This document shows positions 6,841-22,342 of a stretch of DNA of 32,249 bases, piece by piece (position 1 is the first letter of the stretch; each line of letters opens with the position of its first letter). A program made the translations under genes and the position numbers. The notes under the pieces are model-generated. The model was not told where the DNA came from, did not search any database, and worked only from the letters and a program-made list of their open reading frames with translations. The stretch is from Aquisalimonas sp. Its GTDB lineage: Bacteria; Pseudomonadota; Gammaproteobacteria; Nitrococcales; Aquisalimonadaceae. Where the stretch lies: NCBI RefSeq assembly GCF_007120195.1, contig NZ_SKOG01000044.1, positions 1 through 32,249 on the forward strand, in the 5' to 3' direction.

Positions 6841-7031
6841 AAGACGGTTCGTCGAGAGACGCTGGGTGTCTATCAATTGCCCTTGGTTGGGCGGATTGGG
6901 GCGTTGTCATTGAGGTTGAAGCCGAGTCGAGGCGCAGATTCATGGCTGCCACTTGGCGCGGATACCAGCAATCCGATGGCTTCAGCGGAGGAAGGTAGAG
7001 TTTATACTGCCTATAATCGGGAGGCGCTGGG

Positions 7032-7910
7032 ATGAGTATGACATCGAAGGGGCTGATTCCCGCCGCATTCGTCGTTCTCTGTTTGCCAGTCACCGCACCG
7101 GCGGCATGGTTCGGGGATCTGGAGCTGGCCATTGCCCACGACGACAACATGAATCGTGCCGCCCGCGCCGCCGATGAGCGCAGCGACACGTTCGCGGACG
7201 TGGAACTGGTCGGGGCTCGGCCGTTCGACCTGCGCGAGTGGGGCACACTGGACGCGGGTGTCGTCCTCTCCGGTCGGGGGCACGACCGATTTCACGAGCT
7301 CAATCGCGCCAGTGTCGGTTTAACGCTTGATTTTCATCGTCGCCTGGGCCTTGGGCCGCAGGCTCCCTGGGTGGGTGCCCACGGCGAATTCCATTATGAC
7401 CGGGTCAAGGACGACCTGCGCAAGGCCCGGCGCCAAGTCGTGGGCGTCAGCGCAGGGCGCGGTTTCGGCGACGCCTTGCAGGTCTCGGGTGGTGTCACTT
7501 ACACCCGGCAGTCTCCCCGCAACGTGACGCGTGAGGAGGGCAATGCGCCGCAACGGGTGTTCCGGCTGAAAACGCTCACCCTGAGCGTCGATGTGGACTA
7601 CCTGCTGGCCAATGACTGGCTCTTGCTGGCCGGCTTCGATATTCAGGACGGCGATATCAACGCCAGCACCACCGACCCCGACCTGTTTGACTCCGAACCA
7701 CCCCCATGGCTGCAAGATCCGGTATTCGGCCGGGATTTCCGGACGTATCGCCTTGATGCGACGGTGTTCGGGCTGCATGCTGGTCTGTCTGTGCCCCTGA
7801 GTCCCCGCTCCTCGCTCAACGTTCAGGCGCGATATACGGAGGTGGATGCGCAGAACGACATCAGCTACGGAGCGACACGATGGCGACTGAGCTACCTTCG
7901 GGAGTTATGA
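7032..7910 (+). CDS. Outer-membrane beta-barrel protein, first gene of the cyclase operon
   Basis: A 292-residue exported protein. An N-terminal signal peptide (GLIPAAFVVLCLPVTAPAAW) is predicted to be cleaved near AAW at about residue 25. The mature part is a run of alternating amphipathic strands (for example FADVELVGARPFDL, TLDAGVVLSGRG, LNVQARYTEVDAQND) separated by polar turns, the pattern of an outer-membrane barrel. It ends in WRLSYLREL, with hydrophobic residues near the C-terminus as usual for barrels. A TATAAT box at 7012-7017 lies so close to the ATG that it would leave almost no leader, so the true promoter is unclear. The stop codon overlaps the start of the cupredoxin-like gene (ATGA), so the two are translationally coupled. 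The transported or sensed ligand is unknown. Confidence 0.72.
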   Translation: MSMTSKGLIPAAFVVLCLPVTAPAAWFGDLELAIAHDDNMNRAARAADERSDTFADVELVGARPFDLREWGTLDAGVVLSGRGHDRFHELNRASVGLTLDFHRRLGLGPQAPWVGAHGEFHYDRVKDDLRKARRQVVGVSAGRGFGDALQVSGGVTYTRQSPRNVTREEGNAPQRVFRLKTLTLSVDVDYLLANDWLLLAGFDIQDGDINASTTDPDLFDSEPPPWLQDPVFGRDFRTYRLDATVFGLHAGLSVPLSPRSSLNVQARYTEVDAQNDISYGATRWRLSYLREL

Positions 7911-8560
7911 GAACGGCGTTCGTCCTGTTTTGGGGGTTGGTTCTGGCGGTCACTGGCGTGACGGTGCAGGCGGCCGGGTTGCAGGTTCAGGTGCGAGATG
8001 GCGACGGTCAGGCGGTTGAGAACGCGGCCATCGTGGTGCGCGCCCTGGATGAGACACCCGAGCCTCCGTCGGGGCAGAAGGAGATCGTCGATCAGGTCGA
8101 TCGCGAGTTCGTGCCTCCCGCCATCGTGGTGCCGGTGAGTACGCGCATCCTGTTTCCCAACAATGACGACATTCGCCACCATGTGTACTCCTTCTCGGAG
8201 GCCAAGTCATTCGAGTTGCCGCTCTATACCGGCATGCCGGCGCGCCCCATCGAGTTCCCGAATCCCGGCATCGTCACCATCGCCTGCAACATCCACGACT
8301 GGATGAGTGCGCATATCTATGTGGTGGACTCTCCTTGGCACGGGTTGACGGACGGCGACGGTGCCTGGCGCGCATCCGACCTGCCCGCCGGGCAGTACAG
8401 CGTGGAAGTCTGGCACCACGGGCTGCCCGAGGAGCAGCAAAGGGTGGGCGAGATCGACCTCGAGGCCGATGCCAGCGTGGAACTGGAGGCGACGGTCGAA
8501 TTGGCCGCCGGGCCCTCCCCACGGCGCGCCCCGAGGCCCGGTCGACGCGGGTATCGTTGA
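7907..8560 (+). CDS. Periplasmic cupredoxin-like (plastocyanin/methylamine-utilisation type) protein
   Basis: A 217-residue exported protein; the start is the ATG in the ATGA overlap with the barrel gene. A signal peptide (VLFWGLVLAVTGVTVQAAG) precedes the mature chain. The cupredoxin core shows the expected copper ligands: a histidine in DIRHHVYSF (about residue 88), then cysteine, histidine and methionine in ACNIHDWM (about residues 126-133). The DIRHHVYSF / CNIHDWM pattern is that of the small blue-copper-like proteins often labelled methylamine-utilisation or plastocyanin-like. After this comes a carboxypeptidase-regulatory-like region (DGDGAWRASDLPAGQYSVEVWHHG). Its place between an outer-membrane barrel and a membrane cyclase with a periplasmic domain suggests a sensing or redox role, which is inference. 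Confidence 0.78.
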   Translation: MRTAFVLFWGLVLAVTGVTVQAAGLQVQVRDGDGQAVENAAIVVRALDETPEPPSGQKEIVDQVDREFVPPAIVVPVSTRILFPNNDDIRHHVYSFSEAKSFELPLYTGMPARPIEFPNPGIVTIACNIHDWMSAHIYVVDSPWHGLTDGDGAWRASDLPAGQYSVEVWHHGLPEEQQRVGEIDLEADASVELEATVELAAGPSPRRAPRPGRRGYR

Positions 8561-8567
8561 CGCTGAC

Positions 8568-10481
8568 ATGTTTCGATTCCGCCGATTCCAGACCCGTCTG
8601 CTGGTGCTCTTTCTGGCCCTGTTCACGCTCTCTCAGGCCGTTGCGCTCGGGCTGACGAACTGGGCCGGGCGGGCCGCCGCACAGGATGAGATCCACGGTG
8701 CCCTCGAGGTGGCCGCCGGTGTGTTCGGCAATCTGCTGGATGAGCGCGAGGCGCGGCTGCTGCAGGCGGCCGTGCTTCTGGCCGATGATTTCGCCTTCAA
8801 GTCCGCCTATGCCACGCGGGATGCGCCGACCATCGAATCCATGCTGCGCAACCACGGCGACAGGATTGGTGCGGACGTCATGTACCTGCTCTCGCTGGAG
8901 CACGAAGTGATTGCCAGCACGCGCGAGGAAGAAGGCGAGGGCCATGACTTCGGCCATGCGGAGTTGCTGGAGGCGGCCGGCGATGACCCGTATGGCGAGG
9001 CCACGGCGATTGTCCTGGTGGACGACCGTCCCTTCCAGTTGGTGGTGGTGCCGCTTCTGGTCCCGCGCCACGAGGCTTGGGTGGTTATCGGTTTCGAACT
9101 GGACGCGGACTTCGTGGCCAGTTTCCGTGATCTCACCCTCTCGGAGATCAGTCTCCTGGCGGAAACGGGGGAGCAGTGGCGCGTGCTCGCCACCACCCTC
9201 CCGGCCGATACGCGGGGAAGCCTTCCGGGCGTTCTCGCCCGTACCGGCTGGCAGGACGATGCGGCATTCAACATGGAGCTGGACGACGAGACCCATGTCT
9301 CCGTGTTCCGGACCCTTGGGGTGGATGATGACATCCGCCTGGCTGTCGGCATGCAGCGCTCCCTGGACGCCGCCATGGCCCCTTATCAGCGCCTGCAGCA
9401 GGTATTGCTCGGACTGCTGGTCGCCGGCCTCATGCTGACGGCCCTTGGCGCCGCCTGGGTGGCGCGCAAGGTGAGCGAGCCGGTGCGAAAGCTGCGCGCA
9501 GGGGCGGAGCGCATCGAGCAGGGCGAATACCAAACCCGGGTCCGGATCACCCAGCGCGACGAGCTCGGTGCCCTGGGCAAGGCCTTCAACCGCATGGCGC
9601 AAGGCCTGGAGGAGCGTGACCGGGTGCGGGGACTCCTGGGTAAAGTGGTGTCACCGGCCATCGCCGACGAGCTGCTGAGCCGGGACATCGAGCTCGGCGG
9701 CGAGGAGCGGGAGGCCAGCATCCTGTTCTCCGACATCGTCGGTTTCACCTCCCTCGCCGAGACCCTGCCGCCGGCCGAGCTGCTCGACCTGCTGAACGGT
9801 TATCTGACGGGGATCAGTGCAGATATCGAATCCGAAGGCGGTGTGATCGACAAGTACATCGGAGATGCCGTCATGGCCCTCTTCGGTGCGCCGCTGGCGA
9901 AGCCCGACCATGCTGAACGGGCAGTGCGAGCGGCCATGGCCATGGCGGATAGCGTCAGGGCCATGAACCGTGAAGCCGCGGATCGCGCGTCCACCCTCAG
10001 CCTCGGGGTGGGCATCAATTCCGGCACCGTGGTTGCCGGCAACATGGGATCGCGCACCCGCCTCAATTACACTGTGGTGGGCGACGCCGTGAACCTGGCC
10101 TCGCGCCTGGAGGGGCTGACTCGACATTACCGCGTCGGCATTCTCGCCAGCGCGGCGACCGTGGAGCAATGCCCCGGGCTGGTGTTTCGCGAAATCGATC
10201 GCGTGCAGGTCAAGGGACGCCAGGCTGCGGTCAGTATTCATGAACCTGTGGGCCGGAAGGCGCATCTGGATGACGCCATGCGCGAGCGCCTCGCCCTGTT
10301 CTCCAGGGCCCTGGACGCCTACCGGCAACAGTCCTGGGACGAGGCCGAAGCCGCCTTCCGGGCCGTCGCGCAATACGAGCCCAGCGGGCCCTCGGCGCTT
10401 TACCTATCCCGCATCGAGACGTTCAGACGCAACCCGCCGCCACCCGGCTGGGACGGCATCTACCGGGCGACGGAGAAATAG
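8568..10481 (+). CDS. Membrane-bound class III adenylate cyclase with HAMP domain
   Basis: A 637-residue receptor cyclase. Its start is the ATG 7 bases after the cupredoxin stop; an upstream in-frame extension lies inside that gene and is not real. Order of parts: transmembrane helix 1 (about residues 8-28), a large periplasmic sensor of about 250 residues, transmembrane helix 2 (about 282-302), HAMP (about 300-355), a class III cyclase domain (about 375-560) and a short helical tail with a TPR-like stretch. The catalytic metal aspartates are in LFSDIVGFT (about 386) and IGDAVMALFG (about 432). The base-selecting pair is Lys in DKYIGD and Asp in VVGDAVNLASR, the combination that favours ATP. 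The transition-state Asn and Arg sit in VNLASRL. So the product is most probably cAMP. The next two genes carry cyclic-nucleotide-binding domains. Confidence 0.93.
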   Translation: MFRFRRFQTRLLVLFLALFTLSQAVALGLTNWAGRAAAQDEIHGALEVAAGVFGNLLDEREARLLQAAVLLADDFAFKSAYATRDAPTIESMLRNHGDRIGADVMYLLSLEHEVIASTREEEGEGHDFGHAELLEAAGDDPYGEATAIVLVDDRPFQLVVVPLLVPRHEAWVVIGFELDADFVASFRDLTLSEISLLAETGEQWRVLATTLPADTRGSLPGVLARTGWQDDAAFNMELDDETHVSVFRTLGVDDDIRLAVGMQRSLDAAMAPYQRLQQVLLGLLVAGLMLTALGAAWVARKVSEPVRKLRAGAERIEQGEYQTRVRITQRDELGALGKAFNRMAQGLEERDRVRGLLGKVVSPAIADELLSRDIELGGEEREASILFSDIVGFTSLAETLPPAELLDLLNGYLTGISADIESEGGVIDKYIGDAVMALFGAPLAKPDHAERAVRAAMAMADSVRAMNREAADRASTLSLGVGINSGTVVAGNMGSRTRLNYTVVGDAVNLASRLEGLTRHYRVGILASAATVEQCPGLVFREIDRVQVKGRQAAVSIHEPVGRKAHLDDAMRERLALFSRALDAYRQQSWDEAEAAFRAVAQYEPSGPSALYLSRIETFRRNPPPPGWDGIYRATEK

Positions 10482-10489
10482 CGGACTGC

Positions 10490-12748
10490 ATGGTGACTGA
10501 CGAGCTGGCCGAGAAATTGGCGGCGGCCGCGCCGCTCGAGGGAGTGCGCCCGGAAACCGCGCGGGCGGTGGCCGAGCACGCGCGGGAGCGGCGGCTGCAG
10601 CCCGGGGAGACGTTGCTCCGGCAGGGCGAGGCGGCTGGAGATGTCTACGTCGTAGTCGATGGGCGGCTGCGGGTGGTTCTCGACGAGGGCACTGGTTCGC
10701 CCTGTGCGTTCGCGCTGGTGGAGGCCGGCGCGGTACTGGGGGAGATCGCCAGTCTGACCGGCGGGACGCGAGAGACCACTGTCGTCGCGGACACACCGGC
10801 CACGGTGATCGAAATCTCCGCCGCCGGCTTCGAACTGCTGATCAAGAGTGAAGCCGAGGTCGCCCGTCGCTTGACCGAGCTGGCAACAGTCAGGCTCCGC
10901 CAGGCGCAGCTCGCGCGCCAGGTCGCGACACTCTTCCCCGAAGTGGACGAGTCGGTGCGCTGGGCGCTCATGGCCGGTGTCAAATGGGTCCGTCTCAAGG
11001 CCGGCGACACGCTGGTGGAACGGGGCGACCCGGCGGATGCGGCCTACATTGTCGTGTCCGGACGGCTGCGAGCGACCCTCGGCGCGGGGGCGGACGACAT
11101 TCTTGCGGACGTCGGGCCTGGCGAACTCGTCGGCGAGATGGCCCTGGTCGAGGGCGGGGTGCGCACCGCCACGCTCGTGGCAGCCCGCGACAGCCACCTG
11201 GCGCAACTCGGGCGGGACGATTTCCTGGCGACCCTGCGGGGCCGTCCCGAATCCCTGCTGAGAATCGCCCGTGATGCCCTGCGGCGCGCGAGCGATGCCC
11301 GCGGAACGCACGGCGGCGACCGGCGTACCATCGTCCTCCTGGCTGCGCACCCCTGCGTGGATTTGTCAGCGTTTGCGCAGGGGCTTGTCGCGCCACTGGA
11401 GCGGGGGGGCGCGACCCGACTGTTGAGACGTCAGGACGCCGACGACGCGCTCGGGACCCGCACGCTCGCCCAGGGCGGCCCGGATGGCCCCGGCGCCGCC
11501 CGTGTCACGCAATGGCTACAGGAACAGGAGGAGCGCCACGAAACGTTGCTTCTGCAGACCGACACCGACTGGAGCCCCTGGAACGACCTCGTGCTGCGTC
11601 ACGCCGACCACATGGCGCTGATCGTCGATGCCGACGTTGAACCCACTCTGACCCCGGCCGAACAACGCCTTGGTGAAGCGCTCCGAGCCAGGATGGCCTC
11701 CGGGAGTCCGGCCCGGATCCGCAAGAGCCTCATCCTGCTTCATCCGGGCGAGGGCGTGCGCGCAATCGAGTCCCCGCGTGGCACGTCACAGTGGCTCGCC
11801 TCCCGGGACGTGGACGCCTGCCACCACGTTCGATGGGGTCACCCCGGGGACTTCGCACGACTTGCACGGATCATTGCCGAACGCCCCGTGGGTCTCGTGC
11901 TGAGCGGAGGCGGCGCACGCGGCTATGCCCACCTCGGCGTGATGCGCGCCCTGGAGGAGGCCGGCGTGCCGGTCGATATCGTGGCCGGGACGAGTATCGG
12001 CGCTGTCATGGCGGCGTTTGCCGCCTTTGACGTCGGTTGCGATGAGCGGGAGGCGCGGGCGAAGTCGACGCTGCGGGACACGCTGGACTGGACGTTGCCG
12101 CTGGCAGCCCTCGTGAAAGGGGGGCAGATGGCGGCCCTGGCCGAGCGGGAGACGGGGGGACGGGACATCGAGGACTTGTGGCTGCCCTGGTTCGCCGTGT
12201 CCACCAACCTGACCCGTTCGCAGGTGAGCGTGCATCGGCGTGGCTCGATCACCCGGGCGCTGCGCGCAAGTGTCGCCATCCCGGGGATTGTCCCGCCGGT
12301 GGTGTACGGGGACGAGCTCCACGTGGACGGCGGCGTGTTGGATAATCTGCCGGTCGAGCCCATGCGGCGCATCAACCCGCGCGGCCTGGTGATCGCAGCA
12401 GACGTTGCGCTCAATGCCGGGCCTCACGCCAGGGAGGACTTCGGCCTGTCGGTCTCCGGCTGGCGACTGCTGGCGGATCGGCTGTTGCCCGGCCGCCAGG
12501 GGCCTTACGTGCCGGGTATTACGACCACACTGATGCAGTCGATGATCGCCGGCTCGAGTCGGGCGCGCGACCGCGTGATCGCCGACGGCCTCGCCGACCT
12601 CTACCTCGATCTCGACCTGCCGCGCTGCGGGATGCTTGAGTTCGGGGCTCCGGACCGGATTATCGCGGTGGGTTACGACTCCGCCGCGCCCCGAGTGCGG
12701 GACTGGGCAGACGCTTTGCCGGCGCGGGTGCGCGCAAGCTTTTCCTGA
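10490..12748 (+). CDS. Patatin-like phospholipase with two cyclic-nucleotide-binding domains (NTE-like)
   Basis: A 752-residue protein built like bacterial relatives of neuropathy target esterase. Two cyclic-nucleotide-binding domains come first (about residues 5-125 and 140-260). The phosphate-binding cassette of the second, GEMALVEGGVRTATLVA, has the canonical R-T-A; the first, GEIASLTGGTRETTVVA, keeps the arginine but has E after it. A linker of about 200 residues follows. The patatin domain starts at about 467 with the oxyanion-hole motif LSGGGARGYAHLG, the nucleophile serine in GTSIG (about 500) and the dyad aspartate in DGGVLDNLP (about 611). The expected reaction is release of fatty acid from membrane phospholipid or lysophospholipid, gated by cyclic nucleotide. 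It starts 8 bases after the adenylate cyclase gene, so the two are surely co-transcribed. GTG three bases downstream is an alternative start. Confidence 0.93.
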   Translation: MVTDELAEKLAAAAPLEGVRPETARAVAEHARERRLQPGETLLRQGEAAGDVYVVVDGRLRVVLDEGTGSPCAFALVEAGAVLGEIASLTGGTRETTVVADTPATVIEISAAGFELLIKSEAEVARRLTELATVRLRQAQLARQVATLFPEVDESVRWALMAGVKWVRLKAGDTLVERGDPADAAYIVVSGRLRATLGAGADDILADVGPGELVGEMALVEGGVRTATLVAARDSHLAQLGRDDFLATLRGRPESLLRIARDALRRASDARGTHGGDRRTIVLLAAHPCVDLSAFAQGLVAPLERGGATRLLRRQDADDALGTRTLAQGGPDGPGAARVTQWLQEQEERHETLLLQTDTDWSPWNDLVLRHADHMALIVDADVEPTLTPAEQRLGEALRARMASGSPARIRKSLILLHPGEGVRAIESPRGTSQWLASRDVDACHHVRWGHPGDFARLARIIAERPVGLVLSGGGARGYAHLGVMRALEEAGVPVDIVAGTSIGAVMAAFAAFDVGCDEREARAKSTLRDTLDWTLPLAALVKGGQMAALAERETGGRDIEDLWLPWFAVSTNLTRSQVSVHRRGSITRALRASVAIPGIVPPVVYGDELHVDGGVLDNLPVEPMRRINPRGLVIAADVALNAGPHAREDFGLSVSGWRLLADRLLPGRQGPYVPGITTTLMQSMIAGSSRARDRVIADGLADLYLDLDLPRCGMLEFGAPDRIIAVGYDSAAPRVRDWADALPARVRASFS

Positions 12749-14188
12749 TCAGCGGATGCACTCTGCGAATAAGTTGATCCCCTCGTTCTCGAAACGGATG
12801 TTGGTGCTCGGGCGGCCGAATGCCGAGTGCGCGTAGAGCCGGTTGACGTCGTCCTCGGTGCGGTGGACGAGCTTCCAGTCGAGAACATGGTCCATCAGCC
12901 CCCGGGTGGGGTTGCAGGGGTGGATGTTGCCGAGGATGACCCGCCCTCCAGGCCGCAGCATGGAGTGGATCAGGTTCATCAGGCGAACCACCAGATCATC
13001 GCCCAGGTAGTCGATCAGGCCGATGCTGTAGACGAGATCCTGGTCCTGGATCTCCGCACGCGCCTTGCCCAGCGCCAGGCGTATCAGGTTCTCGCTGACC
13101 AGCGACATCTGGCGCTTCAGACCGTTGGCCTGGGCTGCATCGTCGACGAAGGCAAGCGCTTGCAGATCGATGTCGAGCAGCGTTGCCCGGAGATCGGTCG
13201 CATACTCCGGATGAGCGGCGTAGACGTCGAACAGTTCCCGTGCGGGGCCGCAGGCGAGACTGGTGACTTGCGCAGTGGAGCCCTGGCGTGTGCGGACCGT
13301 CTCGCCGATTTCCTCCGCCAGCAGATCACGGCGATTGCGAACGGCCCTGGATGCGGTGGTTTCCAGAAAGCAGCGATCGATCAGCCGCCCTACCGCACCG
13401 GAGCCCTCGGGCCGGTTGCGATAGATCAGCTCGATGGTCCAGAAGTCACCGGCATAGCCTCGCGGTTTGCTGTAGAAGCGCTCCGCCGTCTCCGCGAGCA
13501 GGATGTAGGGCAACAGCTCCTGTTGCATCCGCAGGCCCATCTCCCCCCGGACACGCTCATTGTCGACCTCCTGCGACAGGACTTGATCAAGCAGCGGACA
13601 GAACTGCAGGAACTGCTCAACGATCTCTGCGCTCATGGCCTCGGGGACGACGTCACCGTTCTCCGCCGCCGCTTTCTTGGCGGCGAAGGCGGCTCGCTTG
13701 AATGCTTGCAGTGGCTCATCCAGTCGCTTCCAGGCGCCGGCTTCCTCGCGGGTGGTCAGGTCGGTGTCTGTCGCGACCCGGGACCGGCGGTTCGCCGCCT
13801 TCAGCCGCTCGGCGAGCAAGCGGGCAAAGGCGCGATGCAGGCGTGCCGAGAAATCCGGATCCTGGTCCGCTCTCGCCTGCAGGGCCGAATGCGGAACGGC
13901 AAACGTTATGCTGTTTTCCAGCGCACGGACCCGCTCGGTCGGAGGGCCGGCCGCAAGGTAGGACATCTCGCCCGCCAGGTCGCCCGGACCGAGGGTGGCG
14001 AGCTGCACGTCGACGTCATCGGTGAAAACTCCAAACAGCCCCTGCACGATCAGATACAGGCTATCGAGCGGTTCGCCAGCTTCGATCAGGGTGTCGCCGT
14101 GTGCGACGTCCTGCTCGGCCGCGCTCGCCAGAAGCCACTCCGCGTCCGCGTCCGTGAGCTGCTCGAGCAGCGCAATCCCCTGCTTCAT
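12749..14188 (-). CDS. SAM-dependent methyltransferase with N-terminal cyclic-nucleotide-binding fold (PhcB-like style)
   Basis: The start MKQGIALLEQL is chosen because GGGGAG lies directly upstream; the frame is open 9 more codons. The 479-residue protein has an N-terminal cyclic-nucleotide-binding fold (about residues 5-125; LDSLYLIVQGLFGV, LGPGDLAGEMSYL), a helical linker and a C-terminal class I methyltransferase (about residues 245-450). SAM-site landmarks are SLACGPARELFDVY (motif I), LLDIDLQAL (acidic loop) and LVYSIGLIDYLGD. The block YSKPRGYAGDFW before it is typical of the family often annotated as 3-hydroxypalmitate methyl ester biosynthesis (PhcB-like); that substrate is only a suggestion. 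The phosphate cassette reads GEMSYLAAGPPTERVRA, where the cAMP-contacting arginine is replaced by proline, so cAMP binding is doubtful. Its stop codon abuts the patatin gene's stop with no gap. Confidence 0.85.
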   Translation of the reverse strand: MKQGIALLEQLTDADAEWLLASAAEQDVAHGDTLIEAGEPLDSLYLIVQGLFGVFTDDVDVQLATLGPGDLAGEMSYLAAGPPTERVRALENSITFAVPHSALQARADQDPDFSARLHRAFARLLAERLKAANRRSRVATDTDLTTREEAGAWKRLDEPLQAFKRAAFAAKKAAAENGDVVPEAMSAEIVEQFLQFCPLLDQVLSQEVDNERVRGEMGLRMQQELLPYILLAETAERFYSKPRGYAGDFWTIELIYRNRPEGSGAVGRLIDRCFLETTASRAVRNRRDLLAEEIGETVRTRQGSTAQVTSLACGPARELFDVYAAHPEYATDLRATLLDIDLQALAFVDDAAQANGLKRQMSLVSENLIRLALGKARAEIQDQDLVYSIGLIDYLGDDLVVRLMNLIHSMLRPGGRVILGNIHPCNPTRGLMDHVLDWKLVHRTEDDVNRLYAHSAFGRPSTNIRFENEGINLFAECIR

Positions 14189-14286
14189 GGTCTCCCCCGC
14201 CGTTGTCCAAGGCATCCGCCTGCGGGAATCAATGGTAAGTATGAACCACAGTCGATACTTGTAAGCCTAGGTCATCCGGCCTGGAC

Positions 14287-14315
14287 TTGACAGGAGTCGA
14301 AGTGGGAACAAGATT
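14287..14315 (+). promoter_or_regulatory. Probable sigma-70 promoter of the tmsA/tmsB-like pair
   Basis: TTGACA at 14287-14292 and AAGATT at 14310-14315 are separated by exactly 17 bases. The predicted transcription start is near 14322, giving a leader of about 24 bases that carries the Shine-Dalgarno GAGGTGAT at 14334-14341. The -35 is a perfect match and the -10 a weak one. The promoter lies in the 157-base divergent region shared with the methyltransferase gene on the other strand. Confidence 0.5.
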
Positions 14316-14345
14316 TCAAAGGTGCCGGGATTCGAGGTGATTGCA

Positions 14346-15686
14346 TTGACTGACGAGTTGACTTACCAGAAGCGCCTGGAGAGCCTGCAGCGTGCCATCA
14401 GCGCCTGCCCGGGTGACAGGCCTCGGATCGCCAAGCGCACCACCTCCAATCTGTTCCGGTATCAAGGCCGGCAACCGGCCGCGGGCAGCCGGATCTCGCT
14501 GCGCGGGTTCAATCATGTGCTTGGTTTGTGCTGCGAATCCCGCACGCTCGACGTTGAAGGCCTCACGACATACGAGCAGATCGTGGACGCCACGCTACCA
14601 CAGGGTTTCCTGCCGACCGTCACCCCGGAGCTGAAACACATCACCATTGGCGGAGCGACGGTGGGCATCGGGATCGAGTCGTCCGGCCATCGCCATGGTT
14701 TCGTGCATGACGGGTTGGTGGAGGCGGACGTAGTGCTGCCCGATGGCCGCGTCGTGACCTGCACCGCCGGCAATGCCCATGCGGATCTGTTCCACGCGTT
14801 GCCCAATTCGTATGGAACGCTTGGCTATATCCTCCGCGCAAGGATCAGGTTGATCCCGGCGCAGCCCTTCGTCCGGGTGCGTCATGCACGGTATCAGGAT
14901 GTGACAGGCTATCTGGACGCCATGAAGGAGGCGGTCGACGCCCGCGTTTCCGACTTCATTGAAGGCCTTTTCTATGGCAGTGACGTGCTGTACCTGACCC
15001 GGGCAGACTTCGCGGACAAGGCTTCCCATGTCGAAGACATCTACGGCACCATCTATTACAAGACCGCCGGCCGGATCGGCGATTTTTTCCTGCCCACGAA
15101 ACAGTACATCTTTCGCTATGACCCCGACTGGTTCTGGAACGTGCCTGATTCGCCTGCGTACAACCTGTTTCGCCGGCTGGCTCCACGGGCTCTGCGGAGC
15201 TCCGGATTCTATAACCGTTATAGCGCCTGGAAGAAAGGGATTCTCAAGGCGTTGGACGTGGAGAGAAACAAAAAAATGGAGCCGCTTATCCAGGATTGGC
15301 AGGTCCCGTGGGAACAGGCCGAAAACCTGATCGACTTTGCGCTGGAGCATGTCGATCTTGGAGGGAACCCCTGGGTTGCGCTTCCCATCGTCCCCCAAGG
15401 CTCGCCGACCCTGTATCCAGTTGAGACGGGACGCCTTTATTTCAACCTGGGCTGTTACTGTCTGACCGCGAAGCCGCGACAGGATCGGGAGTTTCACTAC
15501 ACTAGGATAATGGATGAGGCATGCCTGCGTCTGGGCGGATTGAAGATGCTGTATTCGTCCACGTTCATGGACAGGCAATCTTTCGATCGATGCTATAACG
15601 GCACCGCATATGCACGGCTCAAGCAGCGGTATGATCCTGAAGGAGCCGTGCCCGGCCTGTTCGAGAAAGTCGTAGAGGGCGTGTGA
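14346..15686 (+). CDS. tmsA: FAD-dependent oxidoreductase, DHCR24/TmsA-like
   Basis: A 446-residue enzyme of the vanillyl-alcohol-oxidase/PCMH flavin family. The FAD domain includes ISLRGFNHVLGL, the segment ITIGGATVGIGIESSGHRHG (about residues 100-119) that cradles the flavin pyrophosphate, and NSYGTLGYILRARIRLIP (about residues 153-170). The C-terminal half contains VALPIVPQG and YFNLGCYCLT. The family includes sterol delta-24 reductases and bacterial TmsA/BfaA proteins that reduce the methylene intermediate made by a Cfa-like methyltransferase to a 10-methyl fatty acid. The gene for such a methyltransferase overlaps this one. TTG at 14346 is taken as start because GAGGTGAT, an extended Shine-Dalgarno, ends 4 bases before it and a promoter places the transcript start near 14322. 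GTG at 14322 would be leaderless. The symbol is by homology and context. Confidence 0.75.
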   Translation: MTDELTYQKRLESLQRAISACPGDRPRIAKRTTSNLFRYQGRQPAAGSRISLRGFNHVLGLCCESRTLDVEGLTTYEQIVDATLPQGFLPTVTPELKHITIGGATVGIGIESSGHRHGFVHDGLVEADVVLPDGRVVTCTAGNAHADLFHALPNSYGTLGYILRARIRLIPAQPFVRVRHARYQDVTGYLDAMKEAVDARVSDFIEGLFYGSDVLYLTRADFADKASHVEDIYGTIYYKTAGRIGDFFLPTKQYIFRYDPDWFWNVPDSPAYNLFRRLAPRALRSSGFYNRYSAWKKGILKALDVERNKKMEPLIQDWQVPWEQAENLIDFALEHVDLGGNPWVALPIVPQGSPTLYPVETGRLYFNLGCYCLTAKPRQDREFHYTRIMDEACLRLGGLKMLYSSTFMDRQSFDRCYNGTAYARLKQRYDPEGAVPGLFEKVVEGV

Positions 15687-16993
15687 TGACCAATGAAACG
15701 GAGCACAGTGCCGTTCAGCGACGGAATCCGCTGGCCTTGCCCGGCAACAAAGAGCCGTCCAGCAGCACCTCGATTGCACCGGAACGCTGGCTGCTGCGCA
15801 AGGTTCATGAAGCCGTGGGCGAGCCACCGCTGCGGCTGCGCTTGTGGGACGGCTGCACGGTCGGCCCCGAATCCAGTGACATGATGATCGAACTCCGGGA
15901 CCGTGGCGCCTTGTACCGATTACTGCGCCATCCGAATCTCGCCTTCGGCGATCTCCACAGCAGTGGACGGTTGCGGATTCACGGGGAGCTCACCCGGGTG
16001 ATTCATGTCCTCATCGATTCGATGAATGCGCAGGCACATGGAACCTCTCCGGCCTGGACCGGCTGGTTCAAACGGGGGCGCAAACTGCGGGTACGCAAGG
16101 GTGCCAACCTCACCGCCGCCCGCGGCAATATTCATCACCACTATGATCTGGGCAACGATTTCTACCGCTTGTGGCTGGATCGCGCGGCCATGCAGTATAC
16201 CTGCGCGTATTTCGAGAGCCCGGACTATACCCTGGAGCAGGCACAGCTTGCAAAACTGGAACATGTCTGCCGCAAGCTGCGGCTGCAGCCGGGGCAGACG
16301 GTCATCGACGCCGGCTGCGGCTGGGGCGGGCTGGCGCGCTACATGGCCAAGCAGTACGGCGTGCGCGTCCGCGCGTTCAATATCTCCCACGAGCAGGTCG
16401 CCTACGCCAGGGAGGCTGCCAGGGAAGAGGGCCTGGAAGACCGCGTGGAGTTCATTGAGGAGGACTTTCGCAACATCAGCGGATCCTGCGACCGGTTCGT
16501 CTCCGTGGGCATGCTCGAGCATGTGGGGCCGGCGAATTACAAGGCCCTCGCCGGGGTGGTAAGCCGTTGCCTGCACGCGGACGGCCTAGGGCTGATCCAC
16601 ACCATTGGCCGCAATCGGCCGGCGCCACTGGACGCCTGGATCGAGAAACGCATCTTCCCGGGCGGCTATGTACCCAGTGCGGGGGAACTCATGAGGCTGT
16701 TCGAGTACACACCGTTCTCCGTGCTCGATGTGGAGAACCTGCGGCTGCATTACGCGCAAACCCTGGATCACTGGCTGGAGCGCTTCCGGGCTCACCGCGA
16801 GGAGGTGGCCCGGGATTACGATGAGCCGTTCGTGCGTGCCTGGGAGCTGTACCTGGCCGGCTCCAGTGCCACCTTCCGCAGCGGCGGGCTGCAGCTGTTC
16901 CAGGTTGTCTTCGCGCATCCGCGCAACAATCAGGTGCCGCGCGTGCGCAAGGATCTCTATCACGCGCCGGCCGCGCCGTCGGAGACACCCTGA
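15686..16993 (+). CDS. tmsB: Cyclopropane-fatty-acid-synthase family methyltransferase, TmsB-like
   Basis: A 435-residue SAM-dependent lipid methyltransferase. The N-terminal part (about residues 1-120) is the lipid-positioning domain of Cfa enzymes. The methyltransferase core begins near NIHHHYDLGNDFYRLWLD (about 148-165). It has the SAM motif VIDAGCGWGGLARYMA (about 207-222), FNISHEQVAYA, the acidic EEDFRNI, and MLEHVG, the conserved active-site region with the bicarbonate-binding glutamate. The family transfers a methylene/methyl group to the double bond of phospholipid acyl chains. Coupled with the FAD oxidoreductase it should give 10-methyl branched rather than cyclopropane acids. The ATG overlaps the preceding stop (TGATG), so the two are translated together; GTG at 15683 is an alternative. 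A damaged duplicate of the 3' part of this gene lies at 21782-22342. Confidence 0.9.
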   Translation: MTNETEHSAVQRRNPLALPGNKEPSSSTSIAPERWLLRKVHEAVGEPPLRLRLWDGCTVGPESSDMMIELRDRGALYRLLRHPNLAFGDLHSSGRLRIHGELTRVIHVLIDSMNAQAHGTSPAWTGWFKRGRKLRVRKGANLTAARGNIHHHYDLGNDFYRLWLDRAAMQYTCAYFESPDYTLEQAQLAKLEHVCRKLRLQPGQTVIDAGCGWGGLARYMAKQYGVRVRAFNISHEQVAYAREAAREEGLEDRVEFIEEDFRNISGSCDRFVSVGMLEHVGPANYKALAGVVSRCLHADGLGLIHTIGRNRPAPLDAWIEKRIFPGGYVPSAGELMRLFEYTPFSVLDVENLRLHYAQTLDHWLERFRAHREEVARDYDEPFVRAWELYLAGSSATFRSGGLQLFQVVFAHPRNNQVPRVRKDLYHAPAAPSETP

Positions 16994-19979: not shown

Positions 19980-20945
19980 ATGGAGCGGGCACCGCGGCTT
20001 CTGGACGAGGTCCGGGAGCGGATTCGATTCAAGCATTACAGCATTCGGACAGAACGCTCGTATGTGGGCTGGATTCGAAGGTTCATTTTGTTCCACGGCA
20101 AGCGGCACCCGCGGGAGATGGGTGCGCGCGAGGTCGAAGCATTTCTGACACACCTCGCCAGTAACAGGGATGTTGCTGCATCGACGCAGAACCAGGCCTT
20201 CAGTGCGCTGCTCTTTCTCTACCGGGACGTTCTGGGCGTACAGCTTGAGGCAGTCCAGAACGTTGAGCGGGCCAAGAAGCCGACCCGTTTGCCAACGGTG
20301 CTCACCCGCAATGAAGTGCGGGCGGTACTGGCCCATCTCGACGGTACAAACTGGTTGATGGCCTCTCTTCTCTACGGTGCAGGCCTTCGGCTGATGGAGT
20401 GCGTTCGCCTACGCATCAAGGATGTTGATTTCGAACGCCGTGAGATTCTGGTGCGCGACGGCAAGGGCGCGAAGGACCGGGTCACCATGCTGCCCAGCTC
20501 GCTTGTCTCCCCGTTGCAGAAGCGGATGCGACGGACCTGCGAACTCCACCGGCAGGACCGGGCTTCGGGTTATGGGGGAGTCTGGCTGCCCGATGCACTT
20601 TCTCGGAAGTATCCATCGGCTCCGCATGAGACGGGTTGGCAATATGTGTTTCCGGCATCTGTATTGTCCCTTGATCCGAGGTCCAGGGTTCGTCGGCGGC
20701 ACCATGTTGGTGAGCAGGCGGTGCAACGGGCGGTGAAGAAGGCGGTACGGGCCGCCGGGCTTGCGAAACCCGCATCGTGCCATACGCTGCGGCACTCGTT
20801 TGCCACCCACTTGCTGGAAACCGGTTACGACATCCGTACGGTGCAGGAGCTGCTCGGGCACAGTGATGTGCGCACCACAATGATCTACACGCACGTCCTG
20901 AACCGTGGCGGGAAGGGGGTAAGAAGTCCGCTGGATGCCACCTGA
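19980..20945 (+). CDS. intI: Integron integrase (tyrosine recombinase)
   Basis: A full-length 321-residue IntI. The N-terminal arm-binding domain shows [17 protein letters not shown]. The catalytic tyrosine-recombinase residues are Arg in [13 protein letters not shown] (about 139), His and Arg in [10 protein letters not shown] (about 271-274), His in [10 protein letters not shown] and Tyr in MIYTHV (about 305). The extra helix that distinguishes IntI from other recombinases is present ([15 protein letters not shown], about 200-214), ahead of WQYVFPAS. It inserts and excises cassettes between attI and attC sites. It is transcribed away from its cassettes, and no frameshift is seen, so the enzyme may be active. 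The region downstream (20946-21143) holds no recognisable gene. Confidence 0.95.
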
Positions 20946-21143: not shown

Positions 21144-21797
21144 TTACGCAACGACTTCGGTGTAGAGGGGTAGATGGTGATGGCGTCGCCCCGGGTGACG
21201 GCGGTGTTTGGCGGGATTTCCGCCAGGGCGCTCGCCCAGGTGGTGGAGCTGATGATGCCGGAGCCCTGGTCCGGGTACAGGGTCGCGCGCTGGCCCTGCG
21301 CGTCGTGGATAACGCGGGCCCGCAGGTAGCGGGTACGCGGGTCTGGCTTGTCCAGGCTGAAATCCGCACGGGCCGGGGTTGTGCGGGGCTGGAGCTCCGT
21401 TGCTCCCTGGCGCTTGAGGATCATGGGGTGGCCGAACAGGCAGAAAGTCACGAATAGGGAGATGGGGTTCCCCGGCAGGCGAGGAACGGGGTGTCGTTGA
21501 TGCGGCCAACAGCGATGGGCTTGCCGGGCTGGATGGCGACGCGCGAGAGATCGAGGCTGCCGAGTTGCTGCACAACACCGCCTTGGCCGGGTCGGCATCA
21601 CCCACCGAGACGCCGCCGCTGGTGATCAGGATGTCGGCATCCTTCGCGGCGCGCTCCAGTATAATGAGCGTGGATTCGAGCGCGTCCGAGACGACGGGCC
21701 AATGACCTCGCAGCCCAGGGATTGCAGCAGGCCCAGCAGGGCGTAGCCGTTGGAGTTGTAGATCTGCCCCGGTGCGGCGGTCTGGCCAGGCAGTAAG
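21144..21797 (-). pseudogene. moeA: moeA remnant (molybdopterin molybdotransferase), frameshifted and 5'-truncated
   Basis: Pieces of MoeA are readable in successive frames on the - strand: AAPGQIYNSNGYALLGLLQS (near 21780-21710), then DILITSGGVSVGDADPAKAV (near 21640-21580), then the segment IQPGKPIAVGRINDTPFL, then LPGNPISLFVTFCLFGHP (near 21480), and the C-terminal domain with IISSTTWASALAEIPPNT. At least three frameshifts separate them. The N-terminal half is absent: at about 21797 the sequence switches to a fragment of the tmsB-like gene in the opposite orientation. MoeA inserts molybdenum into molybdopterin; this copy cannot be functional. Confidence 0.88.
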
Positions 21798-22342
21798 GCG
21801 TGCGCGTCCGCGCGTTCAATATCTCCCACGAGCAGGTCGCCTACGCCAGGGATGCTACCAGGGAAGAGGGCCTGGAAGAGCGCGTGGAGTTCATTGAGGA
21901 GGACTTTCGCAACATCAGCGGATCCTGCGACCGGTTCGTCTCCGTGGGCATGCTCGAGCACGTGGGGCCGGCGCCACTGGACGCCTGGATATAGAAACGG
22001 ATCTTCCCGGGCGCTTATCTACCCAGTGCGGGGGAACTCATGAGGCTGTTCGAGTACACCCCGTTCTCCATACTCGATGTGGAGAACCTGCGGCTGCATT
22101 ATGCGCAAACCCTGGATCACTGGCTGGAGCGCTTCCGGGCTCACCGCGAGGAGGTGGCCCGGCATTACGATGAGCCGTTCGTGCGTGCCTGGGAGCTGTA
22201 CCTGGCCGGCTCCAGCGCCACCTTACGCAGCGGCGGGCTGCAGCAGATCCAGGTTGTTTTCGCGCATCCGGGCAACAACCAAGTGCCGCGCGTGCGCAAG
22301 GATCTCTATCACGCTCCGGCAGCGCCGCCGGAGACTCCCTGA
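21782..22342 (+). pseudogene. Duplicate 3' fragment of the tmsB/cfa-like gene
   Basis: This is a nearly identical copy of the 3' part of the gene at 15686-16993, starting inside the SAM domain (VRVRAFNISHEQVAYA) and ending at the same stop, with similarity continuing some 15 bases beyond. Three lesions show it is dead: the 5' two-fifths is missing; a 90-base internal block is deleted, its ends in the intact gene both being GGCCGGCG (16527-16534 and 16617-16624); and a TAG replaces a glutamate codon just after (21990s, DAWI-stop). The remainder, from the in-frame ATG at 22040, still reads as the C-terminal 100 residues (MRLFEYTPFSILDVENLRL). Confidence 0.92.

Follow-up and report, generated by a model that had tools for sequence, protein, structure and literature searches.

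Genes of the locus

The window analyzed here, a stretch of 32,249 nucleotides, is the entire contig NZ_SKOG01000044.1 (C85) of a 4.05 Mb genome assigned to Aquisalimonas sp. (G000), whose near relatives bearing names are metagenome assemblies labelled Ectothiorhodospiraceae and Aquisalimonas. This work concerns a block of genes at positions 7032 to 16993 in which a receptor adenylate cyclase, a patatin-type lipase with cyclic-nucleotide-binding domains (CNBDs) and a methyltransferase are encoded side by side. A preliminary description, made from the sequence alone, had listed these genes and read them as a membrane-lipid remodelling locus under the control of cyclic AMP (cAMP). Translation and Pfam searches, by which all assignments were checked, bore out the list:

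7032..7910, + strand: outer-membrane beta-barrel protein (PF13505, 5.7e-07)
7880..8560, + strand: cupredoxin-like periplasmic protein with a CarboxypepD_reg domain (PF13620, 8.3e-09)
8568..10481, + strand: receptor adenylate cyclase, dCache_3-HAMP-Guanylate_cyc (Pfam, residues by alignment)
10490..12748, + strand: patatin of the NTE type with two cyclic nucleotide monophosphate (cNMP) domains, NTE_Ploop (PF24179) and Patatin
12749..14215, - strand: CNBD-methyltransferase of the PhcB/FmtB kind (Pfam cNMP_binding and Methyltransf_20)
14322..15686, + strand: flavin adenine dinucleotide (FAD)-binding oxidoreductase, TmsA-like (PF01565, 8.3e-12)
15683..16993, + strand: CMAS-family S-adenosylmethionine methyltransferase, TmsB-like (PF02353, 1.3e-87)

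The coordinates agree with the arrangement first described. The cyclase stop at 10481 and the patatin start at 10490 leave a gap of 8 bases, which recurs in the related locus L038; the patatin and methyltransferase genes converge stop-to-stop; and beyond them the FAD gene diverges from the methyltransferase gene, with 106 bases between the starts, and overlaps the CMAS gene by 4 bases. The cyclase lies in a long open reading frame from 8361, within which the start kept among relatives is the ATG at 8568, and the likelier start of the cupredoxin-like gene is the ATG at 7907, overlapping the stop of the outer-membrane protein gene. CarboxypepD_reg is the sole domain that Pfam detects in the cupredoxin-like protein, which also has an H..C-H-M pattern that we take to be a set of copper ligands. 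The FAD/CMAS pair had been called TmsA/TmsB-like, and the adjacency of the two genes stands; the naming was mended to follow published usage, in which tmsA is the reductase and tmsB the methyltransferase (PMC7762315; here and below, publications are cited from excerpts of their text).

The 3′ part of the CMAS gene (16344-16916) is repeated about 5.4 kb downstream, at 21783-22265, in two ungapped families that are 97% and 95% identical. These repeats bracket a 290-amino-acid open reading frame without Pfam match and a tyrosine recombinase (19980-20945; PF00589, PF13495), which presumably resembles an integron integrase.

Conservation of the gene set

The gene set is a real conserved unit, because its order is kept between different flanks. 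In L038 (G006) and L040 (G007), the cupredoxin-like, cyclase, patatin, convergent methyltransferase, FAD and CMAS genes follow one another as in the window, and no gene beyond the block in one of these three stretches matches a gene beyond it in another. Whether any relative keeps the order, a point on which the preliminary description had staked its reading, is thereby answered: the order is kept in relatives. In G005 the block is divided between two contigs, L039 with the CMAS, FAD and methyltransferase genes and the patatin end, and L060 with the patatin start, the cyclase and the cupredoxin-like gene; one flanking gene is common to L039 and L040. G003 (L043) has the cupredoxin-like, cyclase, patatin and methyltransferase genes, at which point the contig ends.

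Genome searches scored only a part of the initial candidates (at most 20 per genome for the patatin and the methyltransferase in the window's order, two in the Pseudomonadota patatin survey, six in the phylum methyltransferase survey and four in another search for relatives), which bounds the absences and totals given here. Among the 54 genomes of the order, the patatin was found in five (E 1e-40), and the same five carry the CNBD-methyltransferase (in G003 a fragment, where the contig stops) and the FAD gene (E 1e-20; in G003 only a 38% relative on another contig). Some relative of the methyltransferase catalytic domain occurs in 12 of the 54 (E 1e-15). The cupredoxin-like gene is present in eight, with its closest copies in the five block carriers, the proteins of the four other carriers being 60-78% identical to that of the window. 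The outer-membrane and cupredoxin-like genes had been placed at the head of the operon; this holds in the window, but the former varies between carriers: besides the window it was seen in L038, as pieces, and tblastn at E 1e-6 detected none in L040 or L043 (the L060 contig ends at that place). The carriers are kin and the genes are linked, so that no independent p-value attaches to these counts, which describe a unit kept together and not independent events.

The combination also occurs on a 7 kb contig labelled Nitriliruptoraceae, thus actinobacterial (L041), where a cyclase stands directly before a 57%-identical patatin, a 63%-identical methyltransferase converges with the latter and a CMAS gene lies nearby. 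The cyclase of L041 has a different architecture, shares 28% identity with that of the window and carries a Gln at the position of the window's ATP-type Lys.

An NTE-type cNMP-patatin was detected at E 1e-45 in 43 of the 398 Pseudomonadota genomes surveyed, window's genome included. The 42 other genomes gave 43 patatin loci, and a cyclase adjoins the patatin in one of them (L101:6254-10293, G159), where a CHASE2 cyclase lies 20 bases after the patatin and the rest of the block is absent from the stretch. Two more loci have a cyclase domain at a distance (L102, 9.2 kb; L205, 8.5 kb, weak); these counts refer to stretches around the patatin, several of which are cut short where a contig stops (L072 at 3 kb, L107 at 7 kb). 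The methyltransferase was found in none of the 43 stretches. Paracoccus aminophilus offers a loose case, with a cyclase catalytic domain about 6 kb from the patatin on the other strand. Thus, the combination of cyclase, patatin and methyltransferase is rare, and a description of the joint set, FAD/CMAS pair included, was not found in the literature searched, which lay largely outside the subscription journals.

It might be argued that the cyclase-patatin operon and the methyltransferase-FAD-CMAS set have separate functions and are neighbours by shared descent only. Their transcription units converge or diverge and are not one operon, and G159 has the cyclase and patatin without the rest. Against this, the same neighbours recur between different flanks in three genomes, and cyclase, patatin, methyltransferase and CMAS are kept together on the actinobacterial-labelled contig, where the cyclase is of another architecture. 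We therefore regard merely inherited neighbourhood as very unlikely.

The methyltransferase and its relatives

Relatives of the methyltransferase were gathered into an alignment and tree of 20 rows, through which run the signature K-P-x-G-Y-x-G-D and the residues R295, W447 and R452 (the Y in 19 rows, the other named residues in all 20). The profile of the window's clade aligned with that of nine methyltransferases from phcB operons over 255 columns at 29% identity (hhalign probability 100%, 3.1e-41), whereas comparison with the CMAS family of the block itself gave a probability of 5% over 104 columns. A model of the catalytic part with the N-terminal helices, built from nine sequences, reached a predicted local distance difference test (pLDDT) score of 90.3 for the catalytic part; a model of the whole protein was poor (pLDDT 52.4) and was set aside. 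Foldseek placed 3ocj nearest among solved structures (6.1e-11; next 9.5e-10), and VIA-align also ranked it first (Z 22.1, 3.2 A over 249 residues, 19% identity), with a match from residue 3 to 330 of the model that covers the helical N-terminal part. The runners-up reached Z values of at most 19.0 (the best over 203 residues) and mostly begin past residue 80, leaving the helical part uncovered. The family profile likewise has 3ocj as its top PDB match (5.3e-11; next 7.3e-09).

In the excerpts consulted, 3ocj is the Bordetella parapertussis ortholog of FmtB (BP2936), a free fatty acid methyltransferase; its cavity holds a probable palmitate, with the carboxylate placed for methylation in a model, and overproduction of FmtB raised methyl-ester fatty acids (PMC5426589). 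The product of PhcB is given as 3-hydroxy fatty acid methyl esters (PMC6989110, PMC8578825). As the characterised relatives by sequence (PhcB) and by fold (FmtB) both act on fatty acid carboxyls, the window methyltransferase probably methylates the carboxyl of free fatty acids. The preliminary description had it adjust membrane acyl chains, and this part is not supported: profile and fold go with the carboxyl methyltransferases of the PhcB/FmtB type and not with CMAS, and any methylation of chains would be the task of the FAD/CMAS pair.

Family members outside the block stand in varied company. The phylum survey turned up family members in 24 genomes besides that of the window, and six of these have full operons of a methyltransferase, a histidine kinase, a receiver-kinase and a receiver (L145-L149 and L168). 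In the window's order, phcB-like operons with an extra histidine kinase beside the receiver-kinase and receiver occur in another six genomes (L169-L174, two cut by contig ends), the order being methyltransferase, two histidine kinases and one or two receiver genes. This order and these domains match phcBSRQ as excerpted (PMC8578825), and G159 carries a phcBSRQ-like operon elsewhere in its genome. In L065:5349-11779, on a plasmid of Paraburkholderia graminis, a CMAS gene lies upstream of a Phc-like operon, and in L044:8833-11443 (Verrucomicrobiaceae assembly) a fatty acid desaturase gene is directly 5′ of a CNBD-methyltransferase. On an Enterobacter plasmid (L109:9640-12777), the last domains of a polyketide synthase are a ketosynthase, a carrier domain and, at the C-terminus, a PhcB/FmtB-family methyltransferase; the position of this domain after the last carrier domain fits methylation of the chain end, without proving it. 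The idea that a CMAS gene always accompanies PhcB-type enzymes was rejected, since among 34 loci only L065, L038 and L041 have one; a weak CMAS-like match lies near the patatin of L183.

These neighbourhoods bear on two other readings. One is membrane remodelling proper, in which cAMP-gated deacylation would be followed by adjustment, through the FAD/CMAS pair, of the phospholipid chains left or remade, the methyltransferase being accessory and the ester beside the point. Patatin and FAD/CMAS pair are indeed lipid enzymes in one conserved block, and CMAS near the methyltransferase in L041 or the phc-like operon in L065, together with the desaturase of L044, would suit it. It leaves out, however, the most informative protein, as the methyltransferase groups with carboxyl and not with chain methyltransferases, and we hold this reading to be rather unlikely, although not negligible.

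The other is methyl-ester quorum sensing of the Phc type under new regulation. The homology of the methyltransferase to PhcB-type synthases and the full operons just described, in the phylum survey and in the window's own order, speak for it. Yet a PhcS-type sensor domain was not found in G000, G003, G005 and G007 at E 0.001, in a search that did detect it in nine of the 54 genomes: the six that have phc-like operons, G012 and, with weak matches, G002 and G006. Moreover, in place of the N-terminal part seen in proteins of phcB operons, the methyltransferase has a cNMP fold. This makes a Phc-type system in the window unlikely by a clear measure. G002 and G006, the latter a block carrier, each have a PhcB-family methyltransferase paralog adjoining the weak PhcS-type membrane sensor match (L061:2637-5515 and L062:4160-6654, E about 1e-11). 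The matching protein of L061 has a SpoIIE phosphatase domain, and this pair is possibly a case of methyl-ester signalling with a phosphatase output.

Cyclase, sensing input and cyclic nucleotide binding

In the cyclase, alignment places D389, K429, D433, T502, N509 and R513 at what we assume to be the functional positions of the family. The class III metal aspartates (D389, D433) and the ATP-type lysine (K429) are present. The specificity residues had been described as ATP-type; this applies to Lys429, and the second, an aspartate in class III cyclases of that kind, is lacking, its place being taken by Thr502, which we presume to correspond to the threonine of cyclases resembling soluble adenylyl cyclase (sAC). 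Several of the named relatives bear the sample label CSSed, which we take to stand for soda-lake sediment. A threonine at such a site is thought to predict a response to bicarbonate in sAC-like cyclases (PMC3383692, excerpt), and because of Thr502 and the sample labels bicarbonate is of interest as an input.

The sensor half recurs with another output. In L116:1366-3574 (G012), a related cupredoxin-like protein precedes a dCache_3-HAMP receptor with a GGDEF domain, whose sensor half is 37% identical to that of the window cyclase over 358 columns; a relative of the methyltransferase was not found in G012 in the search of the 54 genomes. The sensor half thus looks like a module with exchanged second-messenger output, and a link between the ligand of this module and the methyltransferase is unlikely.

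The patatin has Pfam scores of 7.4e-40, 7e-18 and 2.5e-29 for its cNMP domains, NTE_Ploop and the lipase domain, and its motifs GGGARG (473), GTSIG (500) and DGG (613) fall in columns kept in the patatin alignment. It had been credited with two CNBDs, one with a canonical R-T-A; both domains are present, and the R-T-A lies in the second only: the phosphate-binding cassette G-E...R-T/S-A of CNBD2 reads R-T-A in all five patatins of such blocks, and R-S-A in L101. The earlier proposal that cAMP controls the patatin is thus plausible, given the adjacent cyclase and this intact motif, and if cAMP is the messenger, its target is likely the patatin and not the methyltransferase. According to an excerpted review, raised cAMP raised the level and esterase activity of human NTE (PMC9025805).

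The layout of a cyclase with a CNBD effector is that of Pycsar anti-phage systems; on such a reading, a cyclic nucleotide would be made upon infection and the CNBD-patatin would damage the membrane. In line with this, PADLOC matched PycC to the cyclase (4.9e-27), PycTIR to the patatin CNBDs (2.9e-25) and, weakly, phospholipase effectors. These matches are confined to shared domains in a defence scan that covered the block genes, the cyclase has an ATP-type lysine and is built as a receptor of the periplasm, in G012 a homologous sensor half, again beside a cupredoxin-like protein, has a GGDEF output, and such systems are not known to include genes like those of the methyltransferase and the FAD/CMAS pair. 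We consider a defence role extremely improbable.

Searches for regulatory signals gave little. The only Crp-like match by the block, at 7028-7043 with 2 mismatches, is within chance; promoter and terminator scans were at or below chance; the region between the methyltransferase and FAD genes showed no clear common motif across four genomes; and Rfam gave no match in the window at gathering thresholds.

A candidate route to fatty acid methyl esters

We propose that the block converts membrane phospholipid into fatty acid methyl ester under the control of cAMP, and we judge the chances that the whole chain is correct to be evenly balanced. A periplasmic signal, passed via the cupredoxin-like protein and the dCache domain, would set the activity of the receptor cyclase, which would make cAMP; cAMP on CNBD2 of the patatin would lead to release of free fatty acid from phospholipid; the PhcB/FmtB-type enzyme would then transfer a methyl group from S-adenosylmethionine onto the freed carboxyl, and the divergent FAD/CMAS pair would feed methyl-modified acyl chains into the pool. 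The ester route gains support from the fact that the expected product of the lipase is the expected substrate of the methyltransferase. The ester might serve as a signal, as a detoxified fatty acid or as a membrane agent. The genes and their domains, the key residues, the conserved unit and the homology and predicted fold of the methyltransferase were observed here, whereas the cyclase product, cAMP as ligand and activator of the lipase, the substrates and what becomes of the ester are inferred. Of the interpretation first given to the locus, the conserved unit and a plausible cAMP control of the patatin thus remain, while the chemistry assigned to the methyltransferase changes: release of acyl chains may in turn remodel the membrane, but methyl-ester formation is what the evidence indicates in the first place.

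Several observations weigh against this proposal. With regard to cAMP, the phosphate-binding arginine is absent from all nine CNBD-methyltransferases aligned, window included (where the sequence is PPTE), a count that leaves out L045, L046 and other relatives without a CNBD, as well as L047, whose reading frame is broken. The methyltransferase had been said to share the regulatory fold, which is indeed present; because the arginine is missing, canonical binding of cAMP, and gating of the enzyme by it, are unlikely. CNBD1 of the patatin reads R-E-T in the window and R-E-A or R-E-T among the five aligned, and the cNMP domains of NTE have been reported, in the excerpt seen, as not essential for some function (PMC9319352). 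A cyclase beside a cNMP-patatin as a general rule has to be rejected on the count of 1 in 43 loci, and matches to the Crp-type pattern numbered 3 in the window, with 9.6 expected by chance.

With regard to the methyltransferase, the tree sets the window's clade apart from the phcB-operon clade (98/98, midpoint root), which makes the enzyme a collateral relative of those from phcB operons and no member of their group; the tree has long branches (L057, L058, L109) and was used only for this split. The label "phcB-operon" rests on gene order and domain make-up, the comparison containing no PhcB sequence from Ralstonia. The Ile-Asp/Glu-Tyr motif of FmtB aligns with Leu-Asp-Ile of the window protein in the profile alignment, and the same source states that the in vitro assay of FmtB failed and that its effect was significant only upon overproduction (PMC5426589, excerpt). 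Neither the common fold nor an identity of 29% is enough to settle the substrate.

The proposal can be extended to a closed circuit, in which the cyclase would sense the methyl ester of a methyl-branched fatty acid made by the block itself, and cAMP would, through the patatin, yield more precursor to be capped, exported and fed back. If true, the block would act as an autoinducer system in which a second messenger does the work of the PhcS phosphorelay. We find it distinctly improbable, as the homologous sensor half drives a GGDEF domain in G012, where a methyltransferase relative was not found.

To our knowledge, little is understood of where bacterial fatty acid methyl esters come from, and what they do, apart from the Phc system, and the unit gives a testable pathway leading to them from a second messenger. 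Also, the block offers a simple bacterial case in which to ask whether cyclic nucleotides directly control lipases of the NTE type.

Comparison with known systems

The window methyltransferase resembles FmtB and 3ocj in its catalytic fold and, in the model, its N-terminal helical substrate domain. It differs from them by an additional cNMP-like domain and by its patatin, cyclase and FAD/CMAS neighbours, and FmtB is described in the excerpted text as membrane-associated and Bvg-regulated (PMC5426589). With the methyltransferases of phcB operons it shares homology over the whole catalytic domain and the KPxGYxGD signature, whereas it falls in a separate clade, has a different N-terminal domain, and stands without phcS, phcR or phcQ beside it, in a genome where the search at E 0.001 found no PhcS-type sensor.

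The patatin is like NTE (PNPLA6/NTE, SWS) and the bacterial cNMP-patatins in its cNMP domains, NTE P-loop-like domain and patatin lipase domain; it has two cNMP domains, in contrast to the three reported for NTE (PMC9025805, excerpt), and is encoded 8 bases after a receptor cyclase. Pycsar shares with the locus the cyclase and CNBD effector; here, the cyclase is a receptor and the effector a patatin lipase, with additional lipid genes and no effector of the TIR or transmembrane kind. The adjacent FAD oxidoreductase and CMAS-type methyltransferase, by predicted function, recall the synthesis of 10-methyl fatty acids by TmsA/TmsB; in the window, the pair is divergent from a carboxyl-type methyltransferase, and other products of the CMAS type are possible. 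Each protein type is already known; the locus brings together a receptor cyclase, an NTE-type lipase and a probable fatty acid carboxyl methyltransferase in one conserved unit.

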